DNA of 64,000 nucleotides, taken from Shewanella mangrovisoli (GTDB lineage Bacteria > Pseudomonadota > Gammaproteobacteria > Enterobacterales > Shewanellaceae). The translations under genes and the position numbers were made by a program. Positions 15,624 to 37,800 of this stretch are shown here, one piece after another (position 1 is the stretch's first letter; each line of letters opens with the position of its first letter). The DNA lies in contig NZ_CP080412.1 of the NCBI RefSeq assembly GCF_019457635.1, positions 2,976,001 through 3,040,000 on the forward strand, read 5' to 3'. Under the pieces are notes generated by a model. It did not search any database. It was not told the DNA's origin and saw only the letters and a program-made list of their open reading frames with translations.

Positions 15624-15748
15624 GATAAAACTCCTTGAATAATCCTGAGACATTTGCCCCAAATATCATATGGTTCCCGTTTTTATAACATCTAAACGGA
15701 TGTGAATGTTGAGTATAAAAACATTCTGTTTAATTAAAAAGTCTTAAA

Positions 15749-29518: not shown

Positions 29519-31963
29519 CTAAATTAACAACAACTGATTCGACGTAATGCTGGTGTAATTTAGTTTCATTATTGAAAAAACAGGCTCTGCAATAGGGCCA
29601 ATTTGCTTATCAATGTAGTACTGATAATCAATTGTAGACGATCTATGCGAAACGGGTTCAGGACCGTTTACAGTAATTACATAATCAATCTGTGCCCCTC
29701 GCTTGCCAAAGGATGCCTTTCCTGTTAACTCACAAAGCTGGCGCGCGACTTTCACATGGGGAGAAGACTTAGCCGTGTATTCGTCTAAATTTCGGCGCAT
29801 ACGTTTACTAAACACTAACTCATCATCGCGCTTGCCCGCTTGAAGTTCGCCGATAACATCAGCCAAATAACCACTAATATCCCGTTGGTTAAACATGCGC
29901 TCATAGAGTTCAGCCTGCACCTTGCGGGCTAAGGGGCTCCAATCGCTACGAACCTGCTCCATTCCCTTAAAAGTGATTTCTAACGCTCCGCTATGGTTAC
30001 GCCAAGCTCCAACATAGCGCTTTTTACTCCCCTCCTCCGAGCCCCGCAGGGTCGGCATAAAAAACTGTTCGTAGTGGCGCTCAAATTGCAGCTCGAGAAA
30101 ACTTTCTAGCTGAAACTCCTGCGCAATTTTACTTTGCCATTGCTGATTCATTCGCGCGGCAATCTGCTTACCTAAGGCATTAATATCACTGAGATCGGGT
30201 TCTGGGCCTAAATAGACGAAGGTGGAGTCGGTATCCCCATAAATGACTTGGTAGCCCATCTCCTCAATCCACACGCGGGTTTGTTTCATAATTTGATGAC
30301 CGCGCATGGTGATGGAGCTTGCCAGTTTCGCATCGTGGAACACACAGCCTTGGGAGCCTAAAACCCCATAGAGCGAATTCATAATGATTTTAATCGCTTG
30401 CGATAAAGGCGCATTCGCCTCCCGCTTAGCTTTCTCACGTTGCTCTGAGAGATTTTGGATGAGTTTGGGCAGAATAGGTTGATGCCGATTAAAACGCGCG
30501 CCCAAAAAACCCGGAACAGTTTCAGGCTCATCTAATGCAGATCCGTCCTCATTATCTAAACCTTCAATCAACCCCTTAGGATCAATCAAAAAAGTTCGGA
30601 TAATCGATGGATAAAGGCTTTTAAAGTCAAACACTAAAATATGCTGATAAAAACCAGGGACAGAATCCATAACATAACCGCCAGGGCTTTCAATCCCTTG
30701 ACTGGCAGGCTCAGCGGGCGCGACGAAACCTGCCCTATGTAAATGCGGTAGATACAAGTGGTTAAATGCGGCGACCGAGGCGCCTACGCGCCCCAGTTCT
30801 AACCCCGTTAACTCGGCGCGAGCGAGGGCAAAATCCCACAATTGCGTATGTTCAAAGATATCCCACACTAAGCGACTATCGGTCAGATTATAGTGGGCAA
30901 GCCCTTGTTTGTTTTCGGCAAATAGCACATCAATCTCTTGAGCTCGATTTTCCACATCATGAATCGCTTTACCTTCACCCAGTAACGCTTGGGCGACAAA
31001 CTCCAAGGAGAAACGCTCAAATTGATAAAAGGCCGCCTTTAACCAATCGATACCATCGAGCACCACTCGCCCTGGCAAACTTAAGGTTTCTGGCCGAAAT
31101 TTATTCTCAACCTTCCACTCAAGGAGCGCGCCACCTCGACCAATACGCAGCGGGATCCGGTGCAGTAACGCACGCCGATATAGCAGGGCTAAGTCAAAGG
31201 TCACCACCGACCAACCAATAATCACATCGGGATCAAACTCCGTAAACCAGGCGATGAGACGATGGATAAGCGCTGCCTCATCGTTCACCCATTCGATATA
31301 GATTGCAGCATCTGGCTGCGCCTCGCCCACCATAATGACTTTTTCATAGGGCTGAGATTGTGCATCGCGTCCATAAAGGGCCACGGAATAGAGTAAACCG
31401 TCAAAACTGCATTCAAAATCGAGGGAGATAGAGCGCAGTTTAATTGCTGACTGCGGCGCAACCGCTTTGGCGCGTATGGCCCTAAAAACAGGCAACTGTC
31501 CATCTATGCCTACTTTGCCGACAAAATGCCCTAAAAATGCCACATCGAGCGCCACAAAACGCTCGATTAAAAAACGCTGCTCGGGACGGATATCCGCCTC
31601 AAATAAGGGGATCCCCGCATCCGTCGCTATCCGCTGCAAGTGACGAAACACACTACTCGATGGAGCATAAATTGCCGCCACGGATTGTCTTTTAAAGCTT
31701 TTAAGCGTAATCGGTACAAAGCGCAGCGCCAGCCCCGGCGTCTGTAACTGCAATGCAGCCATATCGCTTTGATGACAAAAACAAATGTACTCAGAGTCAG
31801 GTAACTCCACCAGCACAGGGCCTGAAACGGTGGCGAGATAATACTGCAACACAAGCGTTGCACCGCGCGTAATAGCATGGCGCGTGAGGACGCGTCCCTG
31901 TACACTCACAGGCGCAGCCGTGTCAGGCGTTAGACACTCGGGGGGATTCAACTGCGGTTTCAC
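29519..31963 (-). CDS. polB: DNA polymerase II (family B)
   Basis: Pol II is a damage-inducible family B polymerase used in translesion synthesis and replication restart. The protein shows the exonuclease region (SISLDFECSFDGLLY and WSVVTFDLALLY), then polymerase motif A (FDFKSLYPSIIRTF), motif B (KIIMNSLYGVLGSQG) and motif C (YGDTDSTF). Homology starts near residue 40 of the longest frame. A GTG at 31963, giving 814 residues, is the likely start; the TTG at 32047 is not. It diverges from dinG around one LexA box, matching known SOS control. Confidence 0.95.
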   Translation of the reverse strand: MKPQLNPPECLTPDTAAPVSVQGRVLTRHAITRGATLVLQYYLATVSGPVLVELPDSEYICFCHQSDMAALQLQTPGLALRFVPITLKSFKRQSVAAIYAPSSSVFRHLQRIATDAGIPLFEADIRPEQRFLIERFVALDVAFLGHFVGKVGIDGQLPVFRAIRAKAVAPQSAIKLRSISLDFECSFDGLLYSVALYGRDAQSQPYEKVIMVGEAQPDAAIYIEWVNDEAALIHRLIAWFTEFDPDVIIGWSVVTFDLALLYRRALLHRIPLRIGRGGALLEWKVENKFRPETLSLPGRVVLDGIDWLKAAFYQFERFSLEFVAQALLGEGKAIHDVENRAQEIDVLFAENKQGLAHYNLTDSRLVWDIFEHTQLWDFALARAELTGLELGRVGASVAAFNHLYLPHLHRAGFVAPAEPASQGIESPGGYVMDSVPGFYQHILVFDFKSLYPSIIRTFLIDPKGLIEGLDNEDGSALDEPETVPGFLGARFNRHQPILPKLIQNLSEQREKAKREANAPLSQAIKIIMNSLYGVLGSQGCVFHDAKLASSITMRGHQIMKQTRVWIEEMGYQVIYGDTDSTFVYLGPEPDLSDINALGKQIAARMNQQWQSKIAQEFQLESFLELQFERHYEQFFMPTLRGSEEGSKKRYVGAWRNHSGALEITFKGMEQVRSDWSPLARKVQAELYERMFNQRDISGYLADVIGELQAGKRDDELVFSKRMRRNLDEYTAKSSPHVKVARQLCELTGKASFGKRGAQIDYVITVNGPEPVSHRSSTIDYQYYIDKQIGPIAEPVFSIMKLNYTSITSNQLLLI

Positions 31964-32050: not shown

Positions 32051-32066
32051 CTGTTATTATGTACAG
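32051..32066. promoter_or_regulatory. LexA (SOS) box shared by divergent polB and dinG
   Basis: CTGTTATTATGTACAG matches the SOS consensus CTGT-N8-ACAG exactly in its eight conserved bases. It lies 26 bases before the dinG ATG and about 88 bases before the polB GTG. polB and dinG are classical LexA targets in E. coli. Confidence 0.85.
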
Positions 32067-32091: not shown

Positions 32092-34164
32092 ATGTTACCT
32101 GACAACGTAAAAAACCAGATCCGCGCTATCTATAAAGATATTGCCGCCGCTTTGCCTAATTTTAGGCCACGCCGCGAGCAGAATTTTATGGTGGCAGAAA
32201 TCTCTAAGACCCTGGCTGGCGACTATGACAAAGATAGACGCATCATAGTGGTCGAAGCGGGTACGGGGATTGGTAAATCATTGTCTTATATCTTGGGCAC
32301 GATCCCGCTTGCGCTCGCGAGTAAGAAAAAGGTCTGTATCGCTACGGCAACCGTTGCGCTGCAAGAGCAGTTACTGCACAAAGACTTACCGTTTTTTCTC
32401 GAACAATCAGGGCTAAACTTTCGCTTCGGTCTGGTCAAAGGGCGCCAGCGTTATGTCTGTTTATCTAAACTTGCCATGCTGATCGGCGATGATAACAGTA
32501 CCCAAATGGCCATGTGGCAAACAAAGCCGGATAACAGCCAAATTGCTATGCTGCAGGAGCTACTCAGCGACTATAATGAAGGCCGCTGGAATGGTGAAAT
32601 CGATACGCTATCGACACCGATACCGGACCATCTCTGGCAGCAAATCGCCTGCGATAAACACAGTTGTCATCGGCAACTCGCCAGTCATCGTAATTGCCCG
32701 TTTCACAAGGCCCGCGAGGATGTGGATACCTGGGATGTACTGATCGCCAACCACAGTTTGCTGTTCGCCGACTTAGAGCTCGGTGGCGGGGTCATTTTAC
32801 CCGATCCCGAAGACGTATTTTACGTCATTGACGAAGCCCACCACTTACCTATCGTCGCGCGGGACTTTTCTAGCGCACAGGCAACGCTTAGGGGAGCCGC
32901 CGACTGGCTCGAAAAAGTCGGGAAGACCAGCGCAAAATTACAAAATCAGATAAAGAGCAACAATATTATCGCCCCTGCGCAGGCGATGCAGGATCATATC
33001 GGTGACTTAATCGCTCAGCTCAATCAAGTCGCCCACTTTTGTGACACTCAAACCAAACAGTTTGCCAATCCCGAGAGCCGCTATCGGTTCGAACACGGTA
33101 AATTGCCCGATGCACTAAAAATTCCCGCCGAGAATCTCGCGGCCACCTCTAATCTTGCCCTTAAGCAATTTAACAAGATGCAATTATTGCTGGCCGAGGC
33201 GATAAAAGATGGCGATATTCCTAAGCATCAAGCGGAAGCGTTACAGGCCGAAATGGGTTTTATGCTGCAGCGACTCGAAAATCTACAAAAGCTCTGGAAA
33301 ATGATGGCAAAGGAAGATTCCACGAAAGGCGCGCCCCTCGCCCGCTGGATTGAATTGCTCACAGGCAAACAGGTCGATTATCTGTTTAGCGCCTCACCGA
33401 TTGAAGTCGGGTTTATGCTCGAGTCTATGCTGTGGCAAAAGGCGGCTGGCGTCGTGCTATGTAGTGCAACGCTTCGGGCGCTGAATAACTTCGACCATTT
33501 CGCCCATCAAGTGGGATTATCGGTAAAGGACGGCAGTCGTTATCTCGCCCTGCAATCCCCCTTCGATTATCCGAATAATGCCACGCTCTACTTACCTAAG
33601 ATGAAAACCGAGCCGACGGATGATGCCTATACAGCTGAGCTTGCCGAACAGATTCTAGAGCTGATTGAAGGCGAAATGGCCACCTTAGTGTTGTTTGCAT
33701 CTTACTGGCAAATGGAGAAAGTCGCCGAATTGCTCGAGGGCAAACTCACGCAGGAAATTCTTATTCAAGGTAATGCTCCGCGTCAGCAATTACTTGAAAA
33801 CCACAAAGCCAAATGTGACAAAGGTGAACCGAGTATCTTGTTCGGCACCGGCAGTTTTTCTGAAGGCTTAGACTTACCCGGAGATTACCTCACCAATCTC
33901 ATCGTCACTAAACTGCCCTTTGCCGTGCCAACCTCACCCGTCGAGCAAGCCCATGCCGAGTATGTGAAAATAAAGGGTGGAAATCCGTTTCTGCAACTCA
34001 CCATTCCAGATGCATCGCGAAAGCTAATCCAAAGTTGTGGTAGATTACTGCGTAAAGAGCAGGATTACGGCCGAGTCACTATCCTAGATAGACGATTAGT
34101 GACCAAACGTTACGGCAAATCCTTGCTAGACGCTCTGCCCCCCTTTAGACGAGTCATTGAGTAG
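32092..34164 (+). CDS. dinG: ATP-dependent DNA helicase DinG
   Basis: DinG is an XPD-like 5'-3' helicase that resolves R-loops and D-loops and is SOS-induced. The 690-residue protein has Walker A (EAGTGIGKSLSYIL), a DEAH-type Walker B (YVIDEAHHLP), and iron-sulfur cluster cysteines at KGRQRYVCLSK and CDKHSCHRQLASHRNC. C-terminal motifs LCSATLRALNNFD, LFGTGSFSEGLDLPG and QSCGRLLRKEQD complete the set. The ATG at 32092 lies just after a LexA box. The next gene begins nine bases after its stop. Confidence 0.95.
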   Translation: MLPDNVKNQIRAIYKDIAAALPNFRPRREQNFMVAEISKTLAGDYDKDRRIIVVEAGTGIGKSLSYILGTIPLALASKKKVCIATATVALQEQLLHKDLPFFLEQSGLNFRFGLVKGRQRYVCLSKLAMLIGDDNSTQMAMWQTKPDNSQIAMLQELLSDYNEGRWNGEIDTLSTPIPDHLWQQIACDKHSCHRQLASHRNCPFHKAREDVDTWDVLIANHSLLFADLELGGGVILPDPEDVFYVIDEAHHLPIVARDFSSAQATLRGAADWLEKVGKTSAKLQNQIKSNNIIAPAQAMQDHIGDLIAQLNQVAHFCDTQTKQFANPESRYRFEHGKLPDALKIPAENLAATSNLALKQFNKMQLLLAEAIKDGDIPKHQAEALQAEMGFMLQRLENLQKLWKMMAKEDSTKGAPLARWIELLTGKQVDYLFSASPIEVGFMLESMLWQKAAGVVLCSATLRALNNFDHFAHQVGLSVKDGSRYLALQSPFDYPNNATLYLPKMKTEPTDDAYTAELAEQILELIEGEMATLVLFASYWQMEKVAELLEGKLTQEILIQGNAPRQQLLENHKAKCDKGEPSILFGTGSFSEGLDLPGDYLTNLIVTKLPFAVPTSPVEQAHAEYVKIKGGNPFLQLTIPDASRKLIQSCGRLLRKEQDYGRVTILDRRLVTKRYGKSLLDALPPFRRVIE

Positions 34165-34173
34165 GATTAAGAT

Positions 34174-34947
34174 TTGGAGTTGTTACTCGAGCCCAGTAAT
34201 TGGGCCCTGTTGGCTGTCATTGGCTTAATTGCAGGTTTTATCGATGCCGTGGTCGGTGGTGGAGGTCTGCTCTCCATTCCTGCCCTGCTCACCCTCGGGA
34301 TCCCGCCCCACACCGCCTTAGGTACCAATAAATTTGCCGCCAGTTTTGGCTCATCCATGGCAGCTTGGACCTATTATCGCCAGCATCTGCTCAAACCCAG
34401 TTTTTGGTATATGGCGTTTATCGCCACCTTTATTGGTGCGGTACTTGGCAGTGTGTTGGTGTACTTGTTAAATGCCCAGTGGCTTGAAAAAGCTTTACCA
34501 CTGCTCATTATTGGCATCGCGATATACAGCTTGCTGAGCCCAAATGCCATCTCGGATACCGATTGCCAGGCACCAACAAAAGCTCAATCTAAACTCAAAC
34601 AAAGTCTACAAGGGCTCTTGCTGGGTGCTTATGATGGTTTTGCGGGCCCAGGTATTGGCGCCTTTTGGACTGTGAGTTCAGGCGCTTTATACAAATTACC
34701 GCTGTTGCATAGCTGCGCGCTTGCCAGAGCCATGACCTTTACCAGTAACTTGACGGCGCTGGCGATCTTTGGCTTTCTTGGGCAAGTCCATTGGCAAATC
34801 GGCCTGTGGATGGGGTTATGTATGATGCTCGGCTCCTTTATCGGCGCCCGCTGTGCGATAAAATTTGGAATGCCTTTTATTCGGCCTTTGTTTATATTAA
34901 TTGTCCTGTCAATTGCCGCTAATCTGGCGTGGAGCGCATGGTTTTGA
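34174..34947 (+). CDS. TSUP family membrane permease (second copy type)
   Basis: A second TauE/SafE-type permease, distinct from the one at 12150. It has GFIDAVVGGGGLLSIPALL and ALGTNKFAASFGSSMAAW near the N-terminus, the repeat-like GLLLGAYDGFAGPGIGAFW in the middle, and about eight hydrophobic segments. The substrate is unknown. The start is a TTG at 34174, with AGGA seven bases upstream, and lies nine bases after the dinG stop. The priC frame overlaps its 3' end by about 19 bases, so dinG-TSUP-priC form a likely operon. Confidence 0.88.
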   Translation: MELLLEPSNWALLAVIGLIAGFIDAVVGGGGLLSIPALLTLGIPPHTALGTNKFAASFGSSMAAWTYYRQHLLKPSFWYMAFIATFIGAVLGSVLVYLLNAQWLEKALPLLIIGIAIYSLLSPNAISDTDCQAPTKAQSKLKQSLQGLLLGAYDGFAGPGIGAFWTVSSGALYKLPLLHSCALARAMTFTSNLTALAIFGFLGQVHWQIGLWMGLCMMLGSFIGARCAIKFGMPFIRPLFILIVLSIAANLAWSAWF

Positions 34948-35606
34948 ACACTTCGCAGCTAATCAGCACGTTGAAAAATCAGCTCACAACCCTTGAGCAA
35001 GAAGTGCTGCAACACGACAGTCACCTTGCGCCGAGTCAGCGCAAACTCCTGCAGGATATTGAGCGCTTTAATCAGTCGCTGTTTATTCAAAATGGCGCTC
35101 AGCTGATGCCCTGCATCGAACAAATACGTAATAGTATCGGCCAGTTAGAGAAACAGATCGCCCTGAAATTGACGCCGCAAACCATCGCCTTAAGCTGTGA
35201 ACGTATTCAAGACCGTTTTACCGCGGTTAAACGGGCGCTACTGACGACCTCAATCGATATAAAGTCTAAAAATCAACAACATGCCAGTAAGCGCGCGCGT
35301 TTTGCCCAGCAACAGGCACAGTCGCACCAAGCCAGCGGGTTTGCTTGGATTGCCAGCAATGTGTTACAAAATAGCCACGAAATCTATGCCGAATTAAACA
35401 AGCATCTGAATTGGGCGAAGAAATTTGAACAAAAAATTGCAGAAATGGAGTCAAAACTTGAAAACTGTCATAGTGCTGACAAAATCCGTTTGCAAAATGA
35501 CATCCTTTTGATGCATCGTCGTTTGGGTAAATGCAGGCAAGCCATCAGTTATATTGAAGATCGCATTCAAGCATTCGAACGTCCGCATCAGAGCCATAAT
35601 CGTTAA
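34929..35606 (+). CDS. priC: Primosomal replication protein PriC-like
   Basis: PriC helps reload the replicative helicase at stalled forks. The 225-residue product is helical and matches PriC in the C-terminal block LLMHRRLGKCRQAISYIEDRIQAFE. The N-terminal part (LEQEVLQHDSHLAPSQRKLL) is also similar in pattern. It is longer than E. coli PriC (about 175 residues), with an extra Gln-rich segment in the middle. The start may be the GTG at 34929, the ATG at 34938 or the TTG at 34944; the TTG has GGAG nine bases upstream. It overlaps the TSUP gene. Confidence 0.75.
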   Translation: MERMVLNTSQLISTLKNQLTTLEQEVLQHDSHLAPSQRKLLQDIERFNQSLFIQNGAQLMPCIEQIRNSIGQLEKQIALKLTPQTIALSCERIQDRFTAVKRALLTTSIDIKSKNQQHASKRARFAQQQAQSHQASGFAWIASNVLQNSHEIYAELNKHLNWAKKFEQKIAEMESKLENCHSADKIRLQNDILLMHRRLGKCRQAISYIEDRIQAFERPHQSHNR

Positions 35607-35615
35607 GGAGCAACA

Positions 35616-36308
35616 ATGAAATCACTTTTGCCAATCAGCAGCCTGCTAGTGTTACTCGGCTCTGCCTCAGCCTTTGCCGCAGATCTGAATATCCCTATGT
35701 CCTTCGAATACCTTGCCCTCGATGGCAAAAAAGTCGAGTCCAGCGTATTCAACCACAAAAGCAGCTTAGAGTTGGCGCCCGGCACTCACAAAATCGCGAT
35801 CCGTTACCATGAGATGGTTGAAGACGATTTCAGTGACAGCCAAACCTTCGTTAAGTCATCGCCTTTTATCGTGACCTTAGAAGTGGACGGCGATCATCAA
35901 TATTATTTGCAAGCCGCAGAGGGCAAGGTCGTTAAAAAGCCTAAAACCTTCGCTCAAAACCCAAAAGTGGTGTTAACCCGTGCTGATAAAGGTCAGGTGA
36001 ATTACCAAGTGACAAACACCGATATTGAAGAAGAGAGCTTTGTCTCCCGTCTCTTTAGCGGTAATCAAGCGGTAGATGTGTCAGGTACTGCCGCCGCAGC
36101 AACGGGCGCAGCAGGCACAGCGGCGGTTGTTGCCGCGCCAGCACCCACTTCGGCGCAGGCAGCCGTTAACGCCACCTCATTAACCGCTCCAGTTGATACA
36201 TCTAAAGCAGCTGGTGCGAATCCACAGCAAATGTTGCAATACTGGTGGTTACAGGCCGATGAGAAAACACGTAAAGAGTTTATGAGCTGGGCGATTTCAC
36301 AACTCTAA
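35616..36308 (+). CDS. DUF2057 family periplasmic protein (YccT-like)
   Basis: The 230-residue protein has a signal peptide ending about residue 21 (GSASAFAAD) and a DUF2057 domain: [43 protein letters not shown]. The middle-C-terminal linker is Ala/Thr-rich ([17 protein letters not shown]). It ends in a helical segment ([15 protein letters not shown]). E. coli YccT has been linked to envelope and curli control; the exact role here is unknown. An AAGGAG ribosome site lies a few bases before the ATG. The gene sits ten bases after priC. Confidence 0.82.
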
Positions 36309-36313
36309 ACAAG

Positions 36314-37216
36314 ATGATCCCATTGGTTTATCACGCCAGCTACTCCAAGCTGGCGTTACCCTCCCACCACCGCTTTCCCACGACCAAATACGCGCGTCTT
36401 TACCAATATCTGCTCGATAATCAACTGGCTGTACCAGCTCAATTTCATACTCCCTCACCCATGACGGCTGAAGATGTTATGCAAGTGCATCAGCAAGATT
36501 ATGTCGAACAATTTATCCAAGGCAGCTTAGCTAGTGCGGCCTTAAGACGCATCGGCTTTCCATGGAGTGAAGCCTTGGTCGAACGCACCTTGCACTCAGT
36601 ATCGGGGACGAGTTTGACCGCACGTTTAGCCTTGCAAACGGGTATCGCCCTTCACTTAACTGGCGGCTATCACCATGCTCATTATGACTTTGGCAGTGGC
36701 TACTGTATTTTCAATGACTTAATTATTGCCGCTCACAAACTGATGGCCGAGCAGCTGTTACATAAAGTGTTGATTTTTGACTGTGATGTGCACCAAGGCG
36801 ATGGCACCGCCACCCTTAGCCACAGGCATCAAGGTATAATAAGTTGCTCCATCCACTGCAAAGAGAATTTCCCGAGTCGCAAACAGCAATCCCACTATGA
36901 TATTGAATTGACTAAGGGTTCGGATGATAGCGCTTACCAGGAAACCGTCGAGCAGACTCTCGAACTGCTGATTCGCCTCCATCAGCCGGATCTCATCCTG
37001 TATGACGCTGGCGTCGATATCCACCAAGATGACGACTTAGGGCACCTAATGATCAGCAAGCAGGGTTTGTATCAACGTGATTTAACCGTGTTATCTATGG
37101 CAAAAGCGGCAAATATTCCTGTTGCGGCGGTAATTGGCGGCGGCTACAGCCGAGACGAACTACAATTAAGCCAAAGACATAGCCAACTTTTTATTGCAGC
37201 CAACCATTTGTGGTAG
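36314..37216 (+). CDS. Histone-deacetylase-family metallohydrolase
   Basis: The 300-residue protein is an acetylpolyamine or lysine deacetylase-like member of the arginase/deacetylase fold, of the short HDAC11-like type. Catalytic His pair: GGYHHAHYDFGSGYCIFND. Zinc ligands lie in IFDCDVHQGDGTATLS (Asp-Val-His) and YDAGVDIHQDDDLG, and IGGGYSRD holds the active-site Tyr. The substrate is unknown. It starts six bases after DUF2057 and is followed by comFB at 34 bases, so it probably shares the operon. Confidence 0.92.
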   Translation: MIPLVYHASYSKLALPSHHRFPTTKYARLYQYLLDNQLAVPAQFHTPSPMTAEDVMQVHQQDYVEQFIQGSLASAALRRIGFPWSEALVERTLHSVSGTSLTARLALQTGIALHLTGGYHHAHYDFGSGYCIFNDLIIAAHKLMAEQLLHKVLIFDCDVHQGDGTATLSHRHQGIISCSIHCKENFPSRKQQSHYDIELTKGSDDSAYQETVEQTLELLIRLHQPDLILYDAGVDIHQDDDLGHLMISKQGLYQRDLTVLSMAKAANIPVAAVIGGGYSRDELQLSQRHSQLFIAANHLW

Positions 37217-37249: not shown

Positions 37250-37537
37250 ATGCAACTCGAAATCCGTAACTATTACGAAGTTCTCTTAATGGAAATGTTA
37301 TCCGATGAAGGTCTAATGGATGAATTGCCGGAGGATTATTTAGCCGATCTCTGCTGTGTTACGCTTAATCAACTGCCAGTACGCTATATTCGCCACCTAG
37401 TAGATACCTATTTCTTCGAAGATTACAACGAGTTACAAGAAATGAAACGAGAAATCCAAGCCGCATTAGAAAAATCTCGTGCCTTTCTTAAACAGAATCT
37501 ACAAAAAAGAATGCAGCAGGAAGAAGCCGACAGCTAA
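37250..37537 (+). CDS. ComFB-family small protein
   Basis: The 95-residue protein matches the late-competence ComFB domain: DYLADLCCVTLNQLPVRYIRH, where the ALNxLPPRYV-like core is typical. The remainder is helical and acidic/basic with a Lys/Gln-rich tail. ComFB family members have been reported to bind cyclic dinucleotides in some bacteria; this is recalled knowledge and not proven here. It lies 33 bases after the deacetylase with GGAGCACAGCG before the ATG. Confidence 0.8.
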   Translation: MQLEIRNYYEVLLMEMLSDEGLMDELPEDYLADLCCVTLNQLPVRYIRHLVDTYFFEDYNELQEMKREIQAALEKSRAFLKQNLQKRMQQEEADS

Positions 37538-37682: not shown

Positions 37683-37781
37683 GGTTCCCCTAGAGCCGAC
37701 ACCCCGGCACACGAGTCGCTTGCTGCGGTTGCTCCCTTCCGGGCCTGGCCGAGTTCACAAGTTATCATTGCGGGGGGACCC
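37683..37781 (-). ncRNA. ffs: 4.5S RNA of the signal recognition particle
   Basis: On the minus strand the sequence contains the universally conserved SRP apical loop CCAGGCCCGGAAGGGAGCA followed by GCAGC, and the pairing GTGTGCCGGGGTGT of the distal stem. The 5' GGGTCCCC and 3' GGGGAACC ends pair to close the hairpin. The RNA binds Ffh for co-translational membrane targeting. Ends are estimated from the terminal pairing, so a few bases may be off. Confidence 0.93.
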
Positions 37782-37800
37782 TAGGGTCACCATAACTTCG

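Follow-up and report, generated by a model that had tools for sequence, protein, structure and literature searches.

In E. coli, polB and dinG are both LexA targets, with a box of the form CTGT-N8-ACAG; the two genes lie apart, each with its own box, and priC is found elsewhere. Published work places dinG in the LexA set (PMC4576408). In Shewanella itself, dinG of S. piezotolerans WP3 is in the core set of genes that change in a lexA deletion mutant under all conditions; priC and polB go unmentioned in the main text of the paper, and its table of box-bearing genes includes neither dinG nor polB (PMC4471891). In S. oneidensis MR-1, pressure shock raises dinG together with lexA, recN and dinB (PMC10896736). 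In V. cholerae, SOS operons are lengthened by read-through, e.g. rmuC-ubiEJB-tatABC and recN-smpA; the genes that share a transcript with an SOS gene mostly have promoters of their own as well, and the SOS table established by experiment for this species does not include dinG (PMC5963079).

The locus analysed here lies in a 64-kb (64,000-nucleotide) stretch of Shewanella mangrovisoli DNA, referred to as the window, in which the 16-mer CTGTTATTATGTACAG sits between divergent polB (GTG start at 31963, minus strand) and dinG (ATG at 32092, plus strand; Table 1). The pairing of polB and dinG as LexA targets and the form of the box are as in E. coli; the differences are that a single box here appears to serve both genes, and that priC follows dinG. 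With the V. cholerae operons the locus shares the principle that ordinary genes behind an SOS gene would be drawn into the response, although the genes are different, and those operons were defined by RNA-seq and RT-PCR whereas the present arrangement is predicted from sequence. The literature searched yielded no published statement or test of priC induction, and a search of it by the MR-1 locus tag likewise found no match. The parts of the proposed arrangement are of known kinds, but their combination, and the hidden hairpin described below, were not found described in that literature. Taken as a whole, a model in which LexA acts on polB and dinG, the dinG transcript extends to the DUF2057 gene, a hairpin forms the boundary and internal elements provide a further supply is, in our assessment, probably correct.

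Table 1. Features of the polB-dinG region, in positions of the window.
Feature	Position	Strand	Remarks
polB, DNA polymerase II	29519..31963	-	NF004421, 1240 bits, cut-off 570
LexA box CTGTTATTATGTACAG	32051..32066	.	common to polB and dinG
Extended -10 candidate TGT-TATTAT for dinG	32052..32060	+	predicted; near-invariant; TG from the CTGT half-site
dinG, ATP-dependent DNA helicase	32092..34164	+	NF008729, 971 bits, cut-off 598
E1, codon-constrained stretch in dinG	34031..34056	+	117 nt upstream of TSUP; candidate internal promoter or site
TSUP (TauE/SafE family) permease	34174..34947	+	related to PRK10621 model
priC	34938..35606	+	PF07445, 186.4 bits, cut-off 23.3; 10-nt overlap with TSUP
E2, codon-constrained stretch in priC	35458..35485	+	TGTCA-N6-TGACA in promoter-like TTGAAA-16-CAAAAT; candidate internal regulated promoter
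DUF2057 protein	35616..36308	+	related to curli inhibitor CsgI/YccT
Histone-deacetylase-family protein	36314..37216	+	PF00850
E3, conserved hairpin in deacetylase codons 7-15	36333..36356	+	candidate 3'-end or attenuation element
ComFB-family protein	37250..37537	+	PF10719
SRP RNA gene	37687..37784	-	RF00169, 68.8 bits; convergent with the dinG gene run

The very short gaps behind dinG that had been noted in the original prediction are correctly described: in the window they are 9 nt (dinG-TSUP), an overlap of 10 nt (TSUP/priC), 9 nt (priC-DUF2057), 5 nt (DUF2057-deacetylase) and 33 nt (deacetylase-ComFB). The order dinG-TSUP-priC-DUF2057, on one strand and with tiny or overlapping gaps, is conserved in Shewanella, with a genus-wide median of 8 nt for dinG-TSUP and 9 nt for priC-DUF2057, and with TSUP and priC overlapping in 68 of 68 cases. 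A strong terminator after dinG had been named as an observation that would overturn the proposed unit; no intrinsic terminator was found at the dinG-TSUP, TSUP-priC or priC-DUF2057 junctions in 68-69 genomes, nor between DUF2057 and the deacetylase gene in 47 genomes, the scan covering intrinsic terminators; Rho-dependent termination is invisible in sequence. Because of the tight gaps and the lack of such terminators, a transcript entering dinG should reach DUF2057 unless Rho acts. Read-through from dinG into TSUP, priC and DUF2057 is therefore very likely, and it is likely that priC is in this way switched on together with dinG under SOS conditions.

The proposal of an SOS read-through unit extending from dinG to ComFB is accordingly well supported for TSUP, priC and DUF2057, and less well for the two last genes, given the hairpin conserved in the first codons of the deacetylase, the terminator that follows the latter in some species, and the retention of ComFB where the deacetylase has gone; the inclusion of deacetylase and ComFB in the SOS unit is doubtful. 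The distal proteins are also not wholly the poorly understood set they had been taken for, in view of the relationships of DUF2057 and the TSUP protein given in Table 1. No known RNA family scored above threshold in the dinG-to-ComFB run, the SRP RNA downstream being the only exception, and no solved structure matching the PriC of the window by sequence was found.

The 148 genomes sampled from the order (families designated by codes, e.g. f2, f6, f9) include 72 with dinG as well as priC. The two genes adjoin each other on the same strand in 62 of the 72, in most cases separated by some 800 nt with TSUP in the interval; the exceptions are family f18 (all six genomes) and four of five genomes in f6. 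Upstream of dinG, a box scoring at least 12 is present throughout the named Shewanella loci, in each of the five f6 genomes and in a single f18 genome, and part of f2 has a degenerate form; the 42 linked genomes of f9, f10, f11, f12, f15, f16 and f21 all lack one. Likewise, no LexA box was detected in six tested loci in which TSUP-priC or priC stands apart from dinG. Since 42 of the 62 linked genomes and these six separated loci have no box, the neighbourhood is older than, or independent of, SOS control. The linkage of dinG and priC thus appears to be old, and its SOS control lineage-specific. The idea that recruitment into the SOS response explains the gene order was considered and is unsupported, linkage being present without a LexA box in those 42 genomes of seven other families.

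It may be, then, that an old neighbourhood has been kept for reasons other than SOS, e.g. so that a helicase acting in replication conflicts and a restart protein are expressed together, and that LexA control was added locally in Shewanella and its relatives, without a selected effect on priC. We regard the chances of this as evenly balanced. The counts of linked genomes with and without a box, the box-free state of the six separated loci, and the absence of dinG from the V. cholerae SOS table (PMC5963079) are all in line with it; however, it is compatible with priC induction by read-through, and removes only the argument that linkage implies recruitment into the SOS response. The two explanations, an old neighbourhood on the one hand and LexA control with read-through on the other, can be true together.

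A second alternative is that in practice LexA governs only polB and dinG, with TSUP-priC and DUF2057-deacetylase-ComFB transcribed mainly from internal promoters, to which SOS read-through adds little. A synonymous-constraint scan, corrected for amino acid and run with a strict filter since variable columns could inflate the signal, gave three internal outliers, i.e. dinG codons 648-655 (E1, excess 0.24), priC codons 175-182 (E2, 0.30) and the E3 hairpin (0.36); the TSUP start reached 0.18, as expected for a start region, and the control genes polB and metC at most 0.08 and 0.13, respectively. E1 precedes TSUP and E2 precedes DUF2057, each by about 120-135 nt, and E2, with the sequence CTTGAAAACTGTCATAGTGCTGACAAAAT, combines a promoter-like arrangement with a palindrome. 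E1 and E2 may thus be internal promoters, and most V. cholerae genes co-transcribed with SOS genes likewise have their own (PMC5963079). By contrast, E1 has no evident promoter consensus, E2 is degraded in more distant species, and even if both elements are active, no intrinsic terminator halts transcripts coming from dinG. A main supply from internal promoters is, on this evidence, possible though less likely than not, and read-through from dinG is the preferred reading. E1 lies in the region of dinG encoding the GRLLR motif, with an AGA codon kept across most Shewanella. Neither element is a genome-wide repeat, E1 being unique and E2 having no other copy within one mismatch.

The third constrained element is E3. 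In the window its stem, CGCCAGC-TACTCCAA-GCTGGCG at 36334-36355, has a predicted stability of -16.2 kcal/mol, and 40 of 44 distinct sequences retain the stem as GCCAGC..GCTGGC. Codon identity given the same amino acid is 0.81 over deacetylase codons 7-14, against a mean of 0.46, with the loop codons varying freely. Two pairs have changed on both sides (in loci L014 and L054), 98.8 percent of alignment cells pair, and sliding the partner strand lowers pairing to at most 44 percent. With two compensatory events among 28 very similar sequences, the covariation is by itself modest evidence for pairing; together with the codon data, it makes good evidence for a conserved E3 hairpin. In six loci from other groups, this hairpin was not found at the start of the deacetylase. 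The idea that E3 is a genome-wide repeat was rejected; elsewhere in the genome there are three further stems of its letters.

The fate of the deacetylase gene in other species is informative with respect to E3. In 13 genomes that have DUF2057 and ComFB, tblastn detected no deacetylase; several of these still carry remnants of the final codons of the gene, readable in L018 and L023, so the gene was evidently lost. Repeated loss between DUF2057 and ComFB is seen at L008, L009, L010, L018, L023, L028 and L037. Several of the species lacking the gene retain a near-identical stem at that place (L008, L018, L028, L037), some with a terminator-like T-run, while ComFB stays, in most cases 234-554 nt behind DUF2057. 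A terminator follows the deacetylase gene in three of 46 genomes, and DUF2057 in four of the 13 genomes without deacetylase. Because the stem persists, in terminator-like form, where the deacetylase is lost, E3 may mark a transcript end, and it is probably an end-forming, stabilising or attenuating element for part of the transcript.

The LexA box was confirmed as a perfect match, and is the sole CTGT-N8-ACAG in the window. The pattern alone is not significant, since 0.77 such matches are expected by chance in shuffled sequence and at least one occurs in half of the window shuffles; the whole genome has 42, against 31 for a reversed control, the genome-wide ranking of boxes resting on an exact-pattern search. 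The central eight bases of the box are, however, A+T at seven positions, and every other site in the genome with at least seven of eight central A/T lies at an SOS-type locus, i.e. dinB, recN, yebG, two umuD-like genes, lexA (two boxes) and an integron integrase gene. The genome has a lexA of matching type, itself the one with two such boxes (L121). The LexA-type box upstream of the integron integrase gene is at 984-999 of locus L122 (G000:C1 4634383-4634398). With a matrix built from Shewanella SOS sites, the polB-dinG box scores 17.7, and the next best site in the window 12.6 (at 15726). No convincing second box was found inside the gene run, the best candidate in dinG scoring 10.7 (at 32457).

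Conservation is the strongest feature of the box. Of the 70 named Shewanella/Parashewanella dinG loci, 67 show the full CTGT-N8-ACAG at 39-68 nt upstream of dinG and 59 have the identical 16-mer, while the three loci without a full box have one altered base in a half-site; the mean information per position is 1.92 bits in the box, compared with 0.57 and 0.49 in the flanks. By virtue of its position, its A+T-rich core and this conservation, the box exceeds chance. A chance match, despite the 0.77 expected in the window, is most improbable, being contradicted by genus-wide conservation at a nearly fixed place and by the published lexA dependence of dinG. The proposal that one operator serves polB and dinG is likewise supported by the genus-wide persistence of the box at a near-fixed position, and the box is best regarded as a real, shared LexA operator, to which LexA is predicted to bind. 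The central bases are conserved beyond what LexA alone requires, likely because a promoter element, the putative extended -10 of dinG, overlaps the operator.

We infer LexA binding at the box, a single transcript, and the roles of the hairpin and internal elements, from these patterns, which can be combined as follows. The operator, overlapping the dinG promoter and close to the divergent polB start, would enable LexA to repress both genes, and removal of LexA upon DNA damage would allow both to be transcribed. The dinG-side transcript would most likely run via TSUP and priC to DUF2057, such that the SOS response would increase PriC along with DinG. E3 would probably end, stabilise or attenuate part of this transcript, leaving less for deacetylase and ComFB, and the distal genes may receive a damage-independent supply from weak promoters located within dinG and priC. 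The more specific proposal, that a dinG-TSUP-priC-DUF2057 transcript brings PriC-dependent restart into the Shewanella SOS response, with its end set by a hairpin within the coding start of the next gene and with internal promoters keeping PriC available without damage, is tentative, and we rate it a little short of an even chance.

As a candidate regulatory element, the hairpin within the deacetylase coding sequence stands on its own. The dinG-TSUP-priC neighbourhood, found across the order, points to a functional connection between DinG and PriC and provides a context for the TSUP permease. Should priC be induced with dinG, a single step would increase both a helicase that removes barriers posed by transcription and a factor that loads the replicative helicase again, which would couple damage sensing to fork restart in a manner not shown by E. 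coli. PriC would then be, unlike in E. coli, an SOS-tuned restart factor in Shewanella.
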